DNA from: Planctomycetia bacterium
GTDB lineage: Bacteria; Planctomycetota; Planctomycetia; Pirellulales; JALHLM01
Reading direction: 5' to 3'
Assembly: GCA_034440135.1 (NCBI GenBank)
Contig: JAWXBP010000473.1
Location: forward strand, 1 to 32,613
Length of the DNA: 32,613 nucleotides
Shown here: in pieces, positions 27,197 through 32,613 of the stretch
Layout: every line of letters starts with the position of its first letter
How positions within the stretch are numbered: position 1 is the first letter of the stretch
Notes under the pieces: generated by a model
The model's database searches: none
What the model was told of the DNA's origin: nothing
What the model saw: the letters and a program-made list of their open reading frames with translations, nothing else
Made by a program: the position numbers and the translations under genes

Positions 27197-28780
27197 CTAC
27201 TTTTCTCTCCTCCCCATTCCGTGTTCTCCGTGGTGAATCCTCGGCCAGAGCACGGCCATCACCAGACCGGTTTGCATCAGCACGACTGCCAGGCAAATGC
27301 CGGCGACTTCCTTCTCCGCGCCGTAGTGCAACTGATTGAAGACCTGAATCGGTAGCGTCACGACGCCCGGCGGCGCGACCAGTACGCTGGCGGGGAGTTC
27401 ACCGATCGCGATGGTGAACGCAACAGTCCATGCCGCGGCGAGTGCTCCGCGATGTTGCGCCAGTCCGATGCGCCCGAAGCGCGAATAGGCGCCGAGACCG
27501 TCTAGCATCGCCACGTCCAGTTGAGCCTCGGGCACGGTTCGTAAGGCGAACCAAAGAATTCCGAGCGCCCAGGGAAATGCGCGCCACCATTGCACCAGCA
27601 CCAGACAACTCAACGGTTGATCGCGCAGCCAGAGCAATCCACTCGCATCTGGTTGCGACAATGTACGAATCAGTCCCATCGCCAGCAAGGATCCTGGCGT
27701 AGCCAACATCGCCACGGCGGCGACGCCCGTCGCCCAGCCACGCCAACCGCCGCGCCGCGCGATCCATGCGAGAGGCGCGGCGCACGCCACGGCGGCGCAG
27801 GCCGCGATAGTAGCGGCCGCGCACGACCAGCCGAGTTCCTCGCGGAAGCGGTAGACGCTGCGCCATGTGGTCACCGCGGCGCCCGTGGCCGACCAGTGGC
27901 GCACACGCATAGCGCCTTGCATTTCGACGATGAGTCCTGCTTTGAATGCCAGGCATGCGACTGGCGCGCCGACCGCGAATAGCAAGACGACGGTAACGAC
28001 GAGCCAACTGGGCCATCGAAAGCGTCCCAGTGAAAACACGCGTGATGAGTTGGGTCGCCGAGCGCGCACAACCGTCGCCAGTGCCGCGCCGATGACAAGC
28101 GCCAACATGACGAGCCAGGTGATCGCCACGAGGCTCGCAAGGACGACCGTGCGAAGCCCGCGATCATCGCCGAGCTGTTGCATCGTGAACAGTTCCTCGG
28201 CAAACGTCCGCACGCGAAATAAATCGGTTACCGTTGTCTCAGTGGCCGTAGTCAACACGATTCCCACGAGCGCCAACCCGATCGCCGGCGCCGCCCTTCG
28301 CAGCGACACGCGCAGCGCCACCTGCCAGGCGGGCATTTCGAGCAGCGCCTGTTCCTCCAATTCACGCTCGACGCCGCTCACGCCGAGCGCCACGCACAGC
28401 GCCGCCCAGGGCATCGCCGCGAGGGCATGAATCCAGATCACGGCCGGCATGCCGTTGAGCCAGACTTCGCCTCCCAGGAATTGCCGGGTCAACGAGCCTT
28501 GCAGGCCGAAGCCGGCGTCCCAGGCCGCCGCCTGGACATAGAGGGGCAAGAACAGGAGCGCGGCGAGCAGCGCGAAAGTCGTGCGACGTCCCGGTAGGTC
28601 AGTCCGCGCCACGAGCCAACCGAGCGCCACGCCGACCGGCAACGCCACGAGCGCCACGCCGCCGGAAAGCTGCAGCGTGTTCCGGAGCAAAGCAGCGATC
28701 CGCGCATCGGCGGCCCCCAGCCAGGCCAGCGCCGCGGCGGCTGCCAAGAGCATTCCTCCGCAGAATAGCGACCCGCGCAT
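27197..28780 (-). CDS. Fe(III)-type ABC transporter permease, two-domain fusion
   Basis: A 527-aa membrane protein with about 12 TM segments and two copies of the binding-protein-dependent permease domain, as in FbpB/SfuB iron permeases. Each half has an EAA-like loop for contact with the ATPase: EEQALLEMPAWQVALRVSLRRAAP at about 137-160 and LDVAMLDGLGAYSRFGRI at about 435-452. It would import ferric iron or a related substrate through the inner membrane, but no ATPase or binding-protein gene adjoins it. Start ATG 28780. The last 12-14 residues (HHGEHGMGRREK) come from a dispersed repeat of the CACGGAGAACACGG type, not from permease sequence. Substrate is inferred from the fused-domain format only. 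Confidence 0.85.
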   Translation of the reverse strand: MRGSLFCGGMLLAAAAALAWLGAADARIAALLRNTLQLSGGVALVALPVGVALGWLVARTDLPGRRTTFALLAALLFLPLYVQAAAWDAGFGLQGSLTRQFLGGEVWLNGMPAVIWIHALAAMPWAALCVALGVSGVERELEEQALLEMPAWQVALRVSLRRAAPAIGLALVGIVLTTATETTVTDLFRVRTFAEELFTMQQLGDDRGLRTVVLASLVAITWLVMLALVIGAALATVVRARRPNSSRVFSLGRFRWPSWLVVTVVLLFAVGAPVACLAFKAGLIVEMQGAMRVRHWSATGAAVTTWRSVYRFREELGWSCAAATIAACAAVACAAPLAWIARRGGWRGWATGVAAVAMLATPGSLLAMGLIRTLSQPDASGLLWLRDQPLSCLVLVQWWRAFPWALGILWFALRTVPEAQLDVAMLDGLGAYSRFGRIGLAQHRGALAAAWTVAFTIAIGELPASVLVAPPGVVTLPIQVFNQLHYGAEKEVAGICLAVVLMQTGLVMAVLWPRIHHGEHGMGRREK

Positions 28781-28879
28781 GGTCGACCTGTTGGCTGAGT
28801 CTTCGCCGGTTTAACGGAACCAATCCCTCCGGCTATCATACCTTCGTTCCGCCCGTGAACTCATGGCATAGAATCTGGC

Positions 28880-29602
28880 GTGTACTTACTCGATCACACC
28901 ATGCCGACGGTCGCCGAAGACCTGGCGCTCGACGAGGCGCTGCTCGAAGCGGCCGAAGCCAATCCGACGCCTATCGAGTGCCTGCGCTGGTGGGAGCCGA
29001 CGTCGTTGGCCGTGGTCGTAGGGCGTTCGTCCCGGTTGTCGGCCGAGGTGAGCCTCGCTAACTGCCAGGCGGACGGCGTGCCTGTCGTGCGTCGCACCAG
29101 CGGCGGAGCGGCGATCGTCGCCGGGCCTGGCTGCCTGATGTACAGCCTGGTCTTGAGCATCGAATCGCGTCCGGAACTGCGCGACGTTTCGTTTGCCCAT
29201 CGCTTCGTCCTGGACCACATGATCGCTTCGATCGCCCGGTTGGTTCCAGGCGTGAAGTGCCGCGGAACGAGCGACCTGGTGATTGGCGACAAGAAAATCT
29301 CCGGCAACAGCCTGCGTCAGCGCCGCCGGAATCTGCTTTATCACGGGACGCTGCTCTACGACTTCCCGCTTGAAACGATTAGTCGATACCTGATCATGCC
29401 GCCGCGCATGCCGGACTATCGAGCTGCGCGGTCGCACGGCGAATTTGTCGCCAATCTTCCGCTGAAGGGCGCCGCACTTCGCGCCGCGCTGGCCGTGACC
29501 TGGGCCGCTGATGTGACATATCCAGACCCGCCACTGGCTGTCGCGAAACAGCTCGCGCAGGAAAAATACGCGACCGCCGCTTGGAACGAGCAATTGAAGT
29601 AG
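28880..29602 (+). CDS. Lipoate-protein ligase A / LipB-like family protein
   Basis: A 240-aa protein of the BPL/LplA/LipB acyl- and biotinyl-transferase fold. Visible features are LALDEALLEAA (about 15-25), RWWEPTSLAVVVGRSS (about 37-52), the family signature VVRRTSGGAAIV (about 73-84) and DLVIGDKKISGNSLRQRR (about 135-152) with the ligand-binding Lys. LYHGTLLYD (about 157-165) completes the set. It attaches lipoate (or octanoate) to carrier domains of 2-oxoacid dehydrogenases or GcvH. The C-terminal accessory domain of E. coli LplA is absent, as in LipM/LplJ-core relatives. The start is GTG 28880, with ATG 28901 an alternative. It diverges from the ABC permease and converges on the PTPMT1-like gene with a 15-nt gap. 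Confidence 0.88.
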   Translation: MYLLDHTMPTVAEDLALDEALLEAAEANPTPIECLRWWEPTSLAVVVGRSSRLSAEVSLANCQADGVPVVRRTSGGAAIVAGPGCLMYSLVLSIESRPELRDVSFAHRFVLDHMIASIARLVPGVKCRGTSDLVIGDKKISGNSLRQRRRNLLYHGTLLYDFPLETISRYLIMPPRMPDYRAARSHGEFVANLPLKGAALRAALAVTWAADVTYPDPPLAVAKQLAQEKYATAAWNEQLK

Positions 29603-29617
29603 CGCAGGAATCGCACT

Positions 29618-30133
29618 TCAGACTTCGCGCTCAAAGTCTCGCACGACCGTGCGGCGTTCCAGTTCTTTCACGATGTGGGGCCGGACTTGTCTTAGCCGTG
29701 TCACCGCTTCGTTCGCACTGATGCGATACCGGTACATCAACCAGCAGGCCACGACCGTTGCGCTCCGCGCGCGGCCAGCCTTGCAGTGAACGTAGACCGT
29801 TTCACCGCGATCGGCCTTCGAGGCGATAAACGCCACAGCGCGGCGGACGTCCGTCAAACGCGGCGGCGTGAAATCCGTCGTCGGCATCCGCATTTGCTCG
29901 ATGCCCAACCGCGCGTATTCCTCGACCGGCCCGGCGTACTCCTCGCACGTGTTCACCACGGCCCGCACGCCGGCGTCGTAGAGCGGTTGCACATCCTTGG
30001 CGAATGGCAGCGCACCGAGGATCACGTTCCCATCGACGCGATCCCACCACCGCCGGGTCGCCGTCAGCCGGTTGAGCAACAGGTTCCAGCCCAACGTCGG
30101 ATAAAACAGCGCTCGGGCAATCAATCGACGCAT
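29618..30133 (-). CDS. PTPMT1-like dual-specificity phosphatase (probable phosphatidylglycerophosphatase)
   Basis: A 171-aa Cys-based phosphatase. The active-site loop is HCKAGRARS with Cys117 and Arg123 (CX5R), and the general acid is probably Asp87 in TTDFT. The whole chain resembles eukaryotic mitochondrial PTPMT1: FYPTLGWNLLLNR (10-22), RRWWDRVDGNVILGALPF (27-44), the EEY segment at 64-66, GIEQMRMPTTD (77-87) and VRPHI near the end. PTPMT1 dephosphorylates phosphatidylglycerophosphate to phosphatidylglycerol on the way to cardiolipin. That is the likely role here, at the inner membrane. ATG 30133 is preferred; the in-frame extension upstream is encoded by repeats. It probably follows the thioredoxin/YHS gene on one transcript. 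Confidence 0.88.
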   Translation of the reverse strand: MRRLIARALFYPTLGWNLLLNRLTATRRWWDRVDGNVILGALPFAKDVQPLYDAGVRAVVNTCEEYAGPVEEYARLGIEQMRMPTTDFTPPRLTDVRRAVAFIASKADRGETVYVHCKAGRARSATVVACWLMYRYRISANEAVTRLRQVRPHIVKELERRTVVRDFEREV

Positions 30134-30163
30134 ATGCAATGATTGGAAAGGGAAAGCAGCGTC

Positions 30164-30195
30164 GTTGTAGCACGGTCTCCCGACCGTGGCACAAC
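30164..30195. repeat. GGTCTCCCGACC palindromic repeat, copy 3
   Basis: GTTGTAGCACGGTCTCCCGAC and onward to CACAAC: the same hairpin-forming family as 27069-27097, here just upstream of the PTPMT1-like start. Outer GTTGT/ACAAC arms extend the palindrome. Confidence 0.85.
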
Positions 30196-30216
30196 AGTCC
30201 TTGCCTACAGGATATC

Positions 30217-30252
30217 GCGCATTCGCCATTCGGGTTTAGGCATTCGAACTTC
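30217..30252. repeat. Degenerate relative of the 22629-22732 repeat
   Basis: CATTCGGGTTTAGGCATTCG resembles the right arm CATTCGGATTTCGACATTCG of the repeat after the antiporter. It lies directly after the stop of the thioredoxin/YHS-like gene (which ends at 30259 on the minus strand). Confidence 0.5.
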
Positions 30253-30258
30253 CGCCTC

Positions 30259-31572
30259 TTACCGCAGCGTGCGATTCACGCTTTGCACGTAGCGTTCGCG
30301 GTTGCGTTCGAATTGGGCCAGCGATTCTTCGCTGACGAAGAGGTAAATGCGGCCGTTCACGAAGAGGCCGTGTTCACGGCGGCCGGCCAGCATCTGGCCG
30401 TGGTCCGTGGCGAGCACCGGGTCGTTCCCGGCCATTACCGGGCTGAAGCGATTGGGTTGCTGCCAAAACTTGTCGCGCTCCGCGGCGCTGGTAAATAGGT
30501 ACGTGCGACCTTCGTGCGAGACACCCCAGCGGACGTCGCCCAGTACCCAGCGTTGCTGTTCGATGAGCGTAACCGGGCAATGGCCGTCCATCGCTAACGG
30601 CGCGGCGCCGGGCGGCAGTTGATCTTGCGTGATGCCGCCGCGTGCCGGCGGCGCTGCCGATGGCCCTTGAACGTAGGGGTTGGCCGCCACAGCACCAGGT
30701 GCCATCGCCGCGGCGGACGGGCCCATCGTTTGTGCCGACGGGGCCATGACCTGTTGTTGCAGCGGTGCGTAGTTGGGCGTCATCTGCGGTGCGACGGCGG
30801 TCGCTTGCTGCGAGGCGTAGCGATCCGCGTAACGGTCATTCATTGCCGGAGCGGCAGGCGCTGTCGGCACGGCTGTTTCTACTTGATAGTTGCTATAGCG
30901 ATCCGGCTGCACGGCGGACGGCGCTTGCTCTTGCGGCGGGCGATTGTAGTAGTCGGCATAGCGATCCTCCGCCTGTGGCGGCGCTACGTTGGCCGTGACG
31001 GGCGGCGCGACTGGAGACGTGTAACGCTGTGGCGGTGATTGTTGAGCCACGGGCGTGACGGGCGCCGTCGGTTGTTGCACAGGAGCGGTGGAGCGCACCT
31101 CGCCATAGGAGACCACAGGGCGCTGCTGAGGCGCCGCGGCCACGGCCGTTTGATGACCGAAGTCCGAAGCGATTTGCGCCATGGTCGCGGTGTAGCCGGC
31201 CATCGTTTGCGGACTGATGAGTCGGTCGACGACTTCACCGTCCGGCGTGATGATCACGTCCGTGGGCCAGGATTCGACGCGGAACTTGCGTGCAGTCGCC
31301 GGATACAGGCTGGCGTTGATCTTAACGCCGACATATTTCGAGGCGAGCGACTGGCCAAAGTTCGGTTGCGAAAAGACCTGCTTTTCGAGGCGTTCGCAGT
31401 GCACGCAATCGTTCCCGCCAAAATGCACCAGCACGAGTCGGTTGGACTCGGCGGCCAGGGTGCGGGCCTCTTCCAGGTTCCGCGCCCAACGCCAGCCTTC
31501 CTCGGCTTGCGCATGAGCCACGGAGGCGACAATAACGACGGCAAAAACAGTGACTTGGTGAAACTGGCGCAT
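30259..31572 (-). CDS. Secreted thioredoxin-fold protein with Pro/Gln/Ala-rich linker and YHS-like C-terminus
   Basis: A 437-aa protein. Signal peptide 1-23 (ends VAHAQAEE). A thioredoxin-like domain follows at about 27-140, with CVHC (Cys56, Cys59) in FGGNDCVHCERL, a VGVKINA strand and the cis-Pro region VESWPTDVIITPDG. From about 145 to 330 is a low-complexity linker rich in Pro, Gln, Ala, with repeated DRYADYY/DRYSNY/DRYADRY motifs. The C-terminal 100 residues look like two YHS-type modules (LAMDGHCPVTL, GRTYLFTSAAERDKFW; GRIYLFVSEESLAQFE). YHS modules are linked to metal binding. The suggested role is thiol or metal handling in the envelope. ATG 31572. PTPMT1-like gene downstream on the same strand. 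Confidence 0.82.
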   Translation of the reverse strand: MRQFHQVTVFAVVIVASVAHAQAEEGWRWARNLEEARTLAAESNRLVLVHFGGNDCVHCERLEKQVFSQPNFGQSLASKYVGVKINASLYPATARKFRVESWPTDVIITPDGEVVDRLISPQTMAGYTATMAQIASDFGHQTAVAAAPQQRPVVSYGEVRSTAPVQQPTAPVTPVAQQSPPQRYTSPVAPPVTANVAPPQAEDRYADYYNRPPQEQAPSAVQPDRYSNYQVETAVPTAPAAPAMNDRYADRYASQQATAVAPQMTPNYAPLQQQVMAPSAQTMGPSAAAMAPGAVAANPYVQGPSAAPPARGGITQDQLPPGAAPLAMDGHCPVTLIEQQRWVLGDVRWGVSHEGRTYLFTSAAERDKFWQQPNRFSPVMAGNDPVLATDHGQMLAGRREHGLFVNGRIYLFVSEESLAQFERNRERYVQSVNRTLR

Positions 31573-31758
31573 GGCCGTGCCATCCTGCTTGCGGGAAGCA
31601 ATCTGCGCGACCCGCCGGCGCGGCGAGCCTTAAAAGTTCTTATCGGCCGCCCACGTGTAGGGATTGTGTCAAAATTCGCCGTTCTGCCACGAACGCGGAA
31701 GTTGCGGGGGTTGCGGGCTTCCGGCTTTACGAGTTCGGAAAAACCGTGCGCGTTGCGC

Positions 31759-31786
31759 TTGACACCGGGGTTAGGAAGATTAAGAT
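31759..31786 (+). promoter_or_regulatory. Consensus-like sigma70 promoter in non-coding region
   Basis: TTGACA (31759-31764) and TAAGAT (31781-31786) are 16 nt apart. Transcription would start around 31793, about 760 nt before the next plausible start codon, and a terminator follows within 120 nt. Confidence 0.5.
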
Positions 31787-31792
31787 TCTCGA

Positions 31793-31911
31793 TAGCTTGA
31801 GTTCTACCTGACGGCGTTGGCCGTTTCGGATCTGTGACCGGGAGATTCGTCGAACCCGGTCGGATTCGCCCTGAAAGCGTTTTGTTTCGGGGCACTGCAA
31901 CGCTTCTTTTT
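31793..31911 (+). ncRNA. Candidate small RNA (about 119 nt)
   Basis: This lies between a good promoter and an intrinsic terminator. It has three stems: ACGGC/GCCGT at 31811-31824 with a GTTG loop, GACCGGG/CCCGGTC at 31836-31861, and the terminator stem at 31875-31905 followed by T5. There is no start codon with a ribosome-binding site and a credible frame. It could be a trans-acting sRNA or a prematurely ended leader of the downstream gene. No known RNA family recognised. Confidence 0.35.
31874..31911 (+). terminator. Intrinsic terminator
   Basis: AAGCGTT (31875-31881) pairs perfectly with AACGCTT (31899-31905) over a 17-nt loop, and TTTTT follows at 31907-31911. Confidence 0.55.
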
Positions 31912-32505
31912 CCCGCTTGGGTGAGACCCGCAGTCGGGGAAGTTAACCGAAGCGAAGCGGCTTCAGTTGTCGGGTTTTTCTGGGCACGGCAGGCCCTATT
32001 TTGGCTGCGTCGTGCGCAGTAGCATTGGCCGGAAGTGACGCGTAGTTCGCCACGGTCGCTTGAAGCGAAAGTGGTGCGGCCTGGCTGGTTTTTGTACCCT
32101 AACCTCCTTGGCCGGCGACGCGCGGTTTTGGCCGCTCGGTTCATAATGTTTGCCATCCGCGGCCTTGCGCTCGGCGGATGCGCACTTGTGGAGGACGTTC
32201 GCTAGCGACGCGTTCCGGAGTGGCACGGAAGTGGCTCCAGGAATTGCGACTGAGTCCTGGTCAATGCTTGGCAATCCATTGGATTGCGCGCCCATTCAGC
32301 CAGTACGCCTTGACGCGGATGCGTTTCCACGACGAGTTGGGCAGTGTTTTCGCGCTTCCGTGCGGCTATGTGCATAGTCGCACGGTTTGGTGACCGTCTC
32401 TCGAGGAGGCGGCGAATCCGCGTTTCGCATCCCTGCGCGGTGCGCAGTGATTTCGCGCGCGGCAGGTGCGCAATTCGCTCCATGAAATGTTTGACGTGTT
32501 CCCGG

Positions 32506-32523
32506 CGATCCCGCGCGGGATCG
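32506..32523. promoter_or_regulatory. 18-bp perfect palindrome upstream of the last gene
   Basis: CGATCCCGCGCGGGATCG is a perfect palindrome 29 nt before the ATG at 32553. It could be an operator, or in RNA a hairpin with a GCGC loop close to the ribosome-binding site. Confidence 0.4.
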
Positions 32524-32552
32524 TTCTGTGTGATTTGAGTTCCAGGTGAGGC

Positions 32553-32613
32553 ATGGCAAAGAAACGAATGGGCCGTAGTCGAGGACGAGGGCCAGGCGGG
32601 CCGAGCGGGCCAG
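32553..32613 (+). CDS. Start of a basic Gly/Arg-rich protein, cut by the window edge
   Basis: ATG 32553 is preceded by AGGTGAGG ending two nt before it, a good ribosome-binding site. The 20 visible codons start MAKKRMGRSRGRG and continue Gly/Pro/Ser-rich. Such basic, disordered N-termini occur on planctomycete Rho factors, RNA-binding proteins and others; identity cannot be decided from this piece. The long upstream region may be its leader. Confidence 0.55.
   Translation, partial: MAKKRMGRSRGRGPGGPSGP

Follow-up and report, generated by a model that had tools for sequence, protein, structure and literature searches.

The Pseudomon-Rho RNA (Rfam RF01720) is linked to leaders of rho, the gene for transcription termination factor Rho. 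The motif is listed as a conserved RNA structure for Pseudomonas (PMC2864571), and the same paper lists Rhodopirellula-1, a structured RNA candidate, for Proteobacteria and Planctomycetes, the latter being the phylum studied here. In E. coli and other bacteria, rho expression is autoregulated by attenuation at the gene's own leader (review, PMC6582626), which in E. coli is known as rhoL (PMC6582626, PMC9765468). According to the same review, the rho leader of Salmonella is a target of SraL (PMC6582626, citing Silva et al. 2019). In the open-licence papers searched, no description of a structured planctomycete rho leader was found.

The window analysed here is one entire contig, of 32,613 nt, from a bacterium of the order Pirellulales. 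An earlier note, made by eye, had placed a small RNA gene at 31759-31911, in what it described as a gene-free region. This description is misleading. An ATG at 32552 (+ strand) opens a rho frame, which is interrupted by the end of the contig. Since rho starts there, on the same strand, the supposed unit is the beginning of a roughly 760-nt rho leader, which continues past 31911 to the gene. The reading of 31759-32551 as the rho promoter followed by an untranslated mRNA leader is well supported by comparison with related genomes. The features are as follows.

31759-31764, + strand: TTGACA, serving as −35 box for rho; exact TTGACA in 84 of 88 rho upstream regions.
31781-31786, + strand: −10 box TAAGAT, after a 16-nt spacer; TTGACA-16-TA[AT]GAT in 38 of the 88.
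31787-32551, + strand: whole rho 5′ leader, with no conserved open reading frame.
31793-31798, + strand: conserved TAGYTT, at the probable start of the transcript; in 22 of 44 leaders against 2.4 in shuffles.
31810-31825, + strand: hairpin 1, GACGGC/GCCGTT (31810-31815 / 31820-31825), loop of 4; relatives have TGCCT..AGGCG at roughly the same place.
31835-31862, + strand: hairpin 2, TGACCGGG/CCCGGTCG (31835-31842 / 31855-31862), loop of 12; counterpart of the GGCCC..GGGCC hairpins of other families.
31868-31893, + strand: hairpin 3, GCCCTGAAA/TTTCGGGGC (31868-31876 / 31885-31893), 9 bp, loop of 8; overlaps and excludes the terminator stem drawn in the earlier note.
31900-31908, + strand: conserved ACGCTTCTT box, core CGCTTCTT; read in the earlier note as 3′ arm plus T-run of that terminator.
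32552-32613, + strand: start of rho (MAKKRMGRSRGRG...), the remainder lying on G000:C437:15922-17142 (− strand).

The rho gene of this organism (window contig G000:C473) is thus split over two contigs, the break falling within the Gly-rich N-terminal part of the protein. The same frame is complete in a genome of the same genus (L009; JALHLM010000093.1, Pirellulales bacterium), where it encodes a protein of 451 aa that is identified as Rho by NCBIfam NF006886 (488 bits, against a cut-off of 315). The gene is present in 144 of 146 Pirellulales genomes. Nearly all genomes of the order carry two Rho homologues. One is near the query, the other is at about 50% identity, and NCBIfam includes a model named paralog_Rho2. 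The upstream neighbour in the window (30259-31572, − strand) is divergent, and its thioredoxin-like product matches YHS at a borderline level.

Compared with the described systems, the planctomycete leader resembles rhoL in lying directly upstream of rho. It differs in having no conserved leader peptide: neither a conserved reading frame nor an upstream peptide was found in the rho leaders. It is also G-rich, rather than C-rich and G-poor as in E. coli, and attenuation is here a proposal. The SraL-targeted leader of Salmonella is likewise a rho leader, acting as a regulatory target, whereas the planctomycete leader has no identified partner sRNA. Searches against Rfam gave no match in the window leader even at an E value of 5, nor in the leaders of other families, which is consistent with the suggestion in the earlier note of a structured non-coding RNA outside known families. 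In particular, no covariance-model match to Pseudomon-Rho was obtained in any of these leaders. There was also no Rfam match to Rhodopirellula-1 in the window or related leaders, although that family is possibly absent from the copy of Rfam used.

The promoter at 31759-31786, as read in the earlier note, is real. Three promoter-like sites occur in window 28000-32613, against 0.6 expected from shuffles. The 88 rho upstream regions behind the promoter counts were gathered from genomes of the order Pirellulales, and in contrast to the 84 with exact TTGACA on the rho strand, only 15 have it on the reverse strand. The difference is sharper when a −10-like hexamer is required 16-18 nt downstream (83 regions on the rho strand, none on the reverse), and the strict form TTGACA-16-TA[AT]GAT did not occur in any of 30 shuffled sets. 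The distance from TTGACA to the inferred rho start ranges from 310 to 1,133 nt, with a median of 645 (77 leaders), and rho genes in a neighbouring family of the same class are also preceded by a TTGACA promoter-like site, about 1.4 kb ahead of the part of rho that was matched. The exact sequence TTGACA-16-TAAGAT is found at only three sites in the 7.3-Mb genome of the window organism. One of the other two (G000:C505:19878-19905, L135) precedes by about 430 nt an ORF resembling ThiC by eye, in a region with no Rfam family at threshold, and the other (G000:C240:14828-14855, L134) lies within 100 nt of a downstream ORF whose start resembles a signal peptide.

The two sister genomes differ at only two positions within the 119 nt of the putative small RNA. 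In the two-genome alignment there are 3 substitutions in 225 nt from 31774, a clustering that on its own is not significant (P about 0.08). The stretch at 32034-32088 is substitution-rich (11 in 55 nt between two same-genus genomes), within an otherwise well conserved leader. When the element was searched directly as DNA against up to 146 Pirellulales genomes, only the same-genus copy and chance-level pieces were returned, because the sequence alone is too diverged for further homologues to be found in this way. Three of the matches were inspected and looked unrelated. Five genomes of family f8 (L019, L021, L029, L026, L033) gave weak DNA matches, all around window 31870-31903.

Leaders were compared between families by aligning them at the −10 box; widening the f14 and f19 sets added no genomes. 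The first 120 nt or so show a common order of parts, namely TAGYTT, hairpin 1, a GC-rich hairpin 2, hairpin 3 and often the ACGCTTCTT box. This architecture is shared by about ten families (f1, f2, f3, f5, f9, f14, f16, f17, f18, f19 and others), and the 5′ ends of leaders also match between families by BLAST (f14/f17, E 8e-6; f14/f9, E 1e-3). The CGCTTCTT core occurs in 10 of 44 leaders, from 6 families, against 0.36 in shuffles, and is present in only part of the leaders with the three-hairpin arrangement. Families f7, f8 and part of f15 share the promoter and the long leader, with the three-hairpin layout unrecognisable. In f5, f14 and f19 (for example L047, L057, L051), a second conserved block, ACGATTTTCGTC...GACGRAAATTGACTTCT, is present further along, within the downstream half; no counterpart of it was identified in the window. 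Taken as ACGATTTTCGTC..GACGRAAATTGACTTCTGG, the block again has CTTCT after a possible hairpin.

The 119-nt segment folds better than its shuffles (z −2.56), and the two short stems of the earlier note exist, at 31810-31825 and 31835-31862; in longer transcripts, the model suggests that the hairpin 1 segment may re-pair with downstream sequence. A fixed-range search for three consecutive hairpins placed 43% of 44 leaders among the top 3 of 60 shuffles, where about 6.6% would be expected. The effect in this control is moderate (mean z −0.85), and the control is less biased than the covariation count given below. For the first 100 nt of the leaders the mean fold z is −1.1, against −0.4 to −1.0 further down, again moderate on average.

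Automatic alignment of the 5′ domain with MAFFT misregisters the helices, and the helix arms were therefore extracted and aligned with neutral spacers, in place of a covariance model. For hairpins 2 and 3, in 11 leaders from nine families, 99.2% of cells are paired, a value reached by 0 of 500 shuffles. All 11 pairs tested show two-sided changes, such that sequences differ between families while pairing is kept. Because the arms were picked by complementarity, the test leans towards structure, and the count is better taken as a description of helix variation than as proof of the helices. One example is independent of the difficult alignment: in two f9 genomes, hairpin 3 reads CTTCGCC/GGCGAAG in one and CTCCGCC/GGCGGAG in the other, an exchange of U-A for C-G.

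The earlier note had ended its unit at an intrinsic terminator. The letters are indeed there, as AAGCGTT/AACGCTT (31875-31881 / 31899-31905) followed by T5 (31907-31911), but they do not form a terminator. The stem, at −5.1 kcal/mol, competes with the far stronger hairpin 3, at −11.0 kcal/mol for 8 of its 9 pairs. Its pairing probability is 0.000 in transcripts ending at 31911, 31990 or 32100. The sister genome has G-to-A at 31879, which puts an uncompensated A-C mismatch into the terminator stem; in hairpin 3 the same position belongs to the loop. The region holds 5 terminator-like sites, where 5.7 are expected by chance, and T5 runs at the corresponding position in relatives are not enriched (13 of 44, against 14.0 in shuffles). 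A conserved terminator hairpin directly followed by a T-run, as would mark a stand-alone small RNA, was thus not found. Conservation of the stems in related genomes had been set as a test, which hairpins 1-3 pass and the terminator stem fails. It is concluded that the terminator is a misreading, in which the ACGCTTCTT box was taken for a 3′ arm and T-run.

Our main reading, which we hold with a probability of roughly 0.7, takes the element as the promoter, with the 5′ domain behind it, of a rho leader that is about 760 nt long, structured and probably cis-regulatory. Sequence comparison provides for it the site upstream of rho, the conserved promoter, the long leader throughout the order, the three-hairpin layout, the compensatory changes and the ACGCTTCTT box. 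The RNA lies between promoter and start codon on the same strand, and conserved structure and sequence occur at the same place in relatives, as is characteristic of a cis-acting leader. By comparison, it is very improbable that an independent small RNA gene of about 119 nt, with its own promoter and intrinsic terminator, lies upstream of rho by chance. In its favour are the promoter, the fold z of −2.56 and, in the window, T5 after a perfect 7-bp stem. Against it, the sister genome breaks the terminator stem, which the computed fold never adopts, T-runs in relatives are unenriched, and many families have the same promoter and 5′ domain ahead of rho, the interval containing no conserved reading frame.

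Two further explanations keep the leader and change its role, and we regard both as unlikely. A stable short RNA comprising hairpins 1-3 could be released from the leader by processing or premature termination, and may also act in trans. The 5′ domain is compact, well folded and conserved, and a fragment of this kind would also be a by-product of Rho-dependent attenuation; however, nothing supports a 3′ end near 31911, where the proposed end is occupied by the ACGCTTCTT box, and other families have conserved blocks further down the leader. Alternatively, the promoter could be real and the leader passive, its length set by genome architecture and its hairpins giving stability to the mRNA 5′ end and nothing more. 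Downstream of the 5′ domain, sequence conservation between families is poor and fold z-scores are weaker, as would be expected of a passive leader, but such a leader does not account for the conserved box, the two-sided changes in the hairpins or the second conserved block of f5, f14 and f19.

For the structured cis-acting leader, we infer regulation of rho, and a mechanism for it, as follows. Transcription would begin near 31793 and pass the pseudo-terminator to reach rho, and the leader, once folded, would determine in cis the amount of rho mRNA that is finished or translated. When abundant, Rho could load on the untranslated leader and terminate before the rho start codon, with the hairpins and the box shaping where Rho or a helper protein binds. 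Such autogenous attenuation is the single most likely mechanism, though at slightly less than even odds, and it is favoured because of the analogy with known attenuation at rho leaders in E. coli and other bacteria. The main alternative for the leader, somewhat less probable, is that another RNA-binding factor recognises the box and controls stability or translation. Using an approximate rule like that of RhoTermPredict, no rut-like, C-rich and G-poor stretch was found in the G-rich window leader (planctomycete Rho may prefer otherwise), and in other leaders such stretches are as frequent as in shuffles. Composition therefore gives no support for Rho loading. It is possible, if rather doubtful, that this is a lineage-specific regulatory RNA of planctomycetes, in which hairpins 2 and 3 and the ACGCTTCTT box serve to sense Rho or another factor by a mechanism that differs from the rut-based attenuation of E. 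coli.

The rho leader of the Pirellulales is best read as a new structured RNA, probably cis-regulatory. It indicates that a promoter, stems and a T-run, which by eye make up a small RNA gene, can be part of an mRNA leader. Rho terminates transcription genome-wide, so that control of its level matters, and the planctomycete rho leader is a testable site for such control outside the model bacteria.
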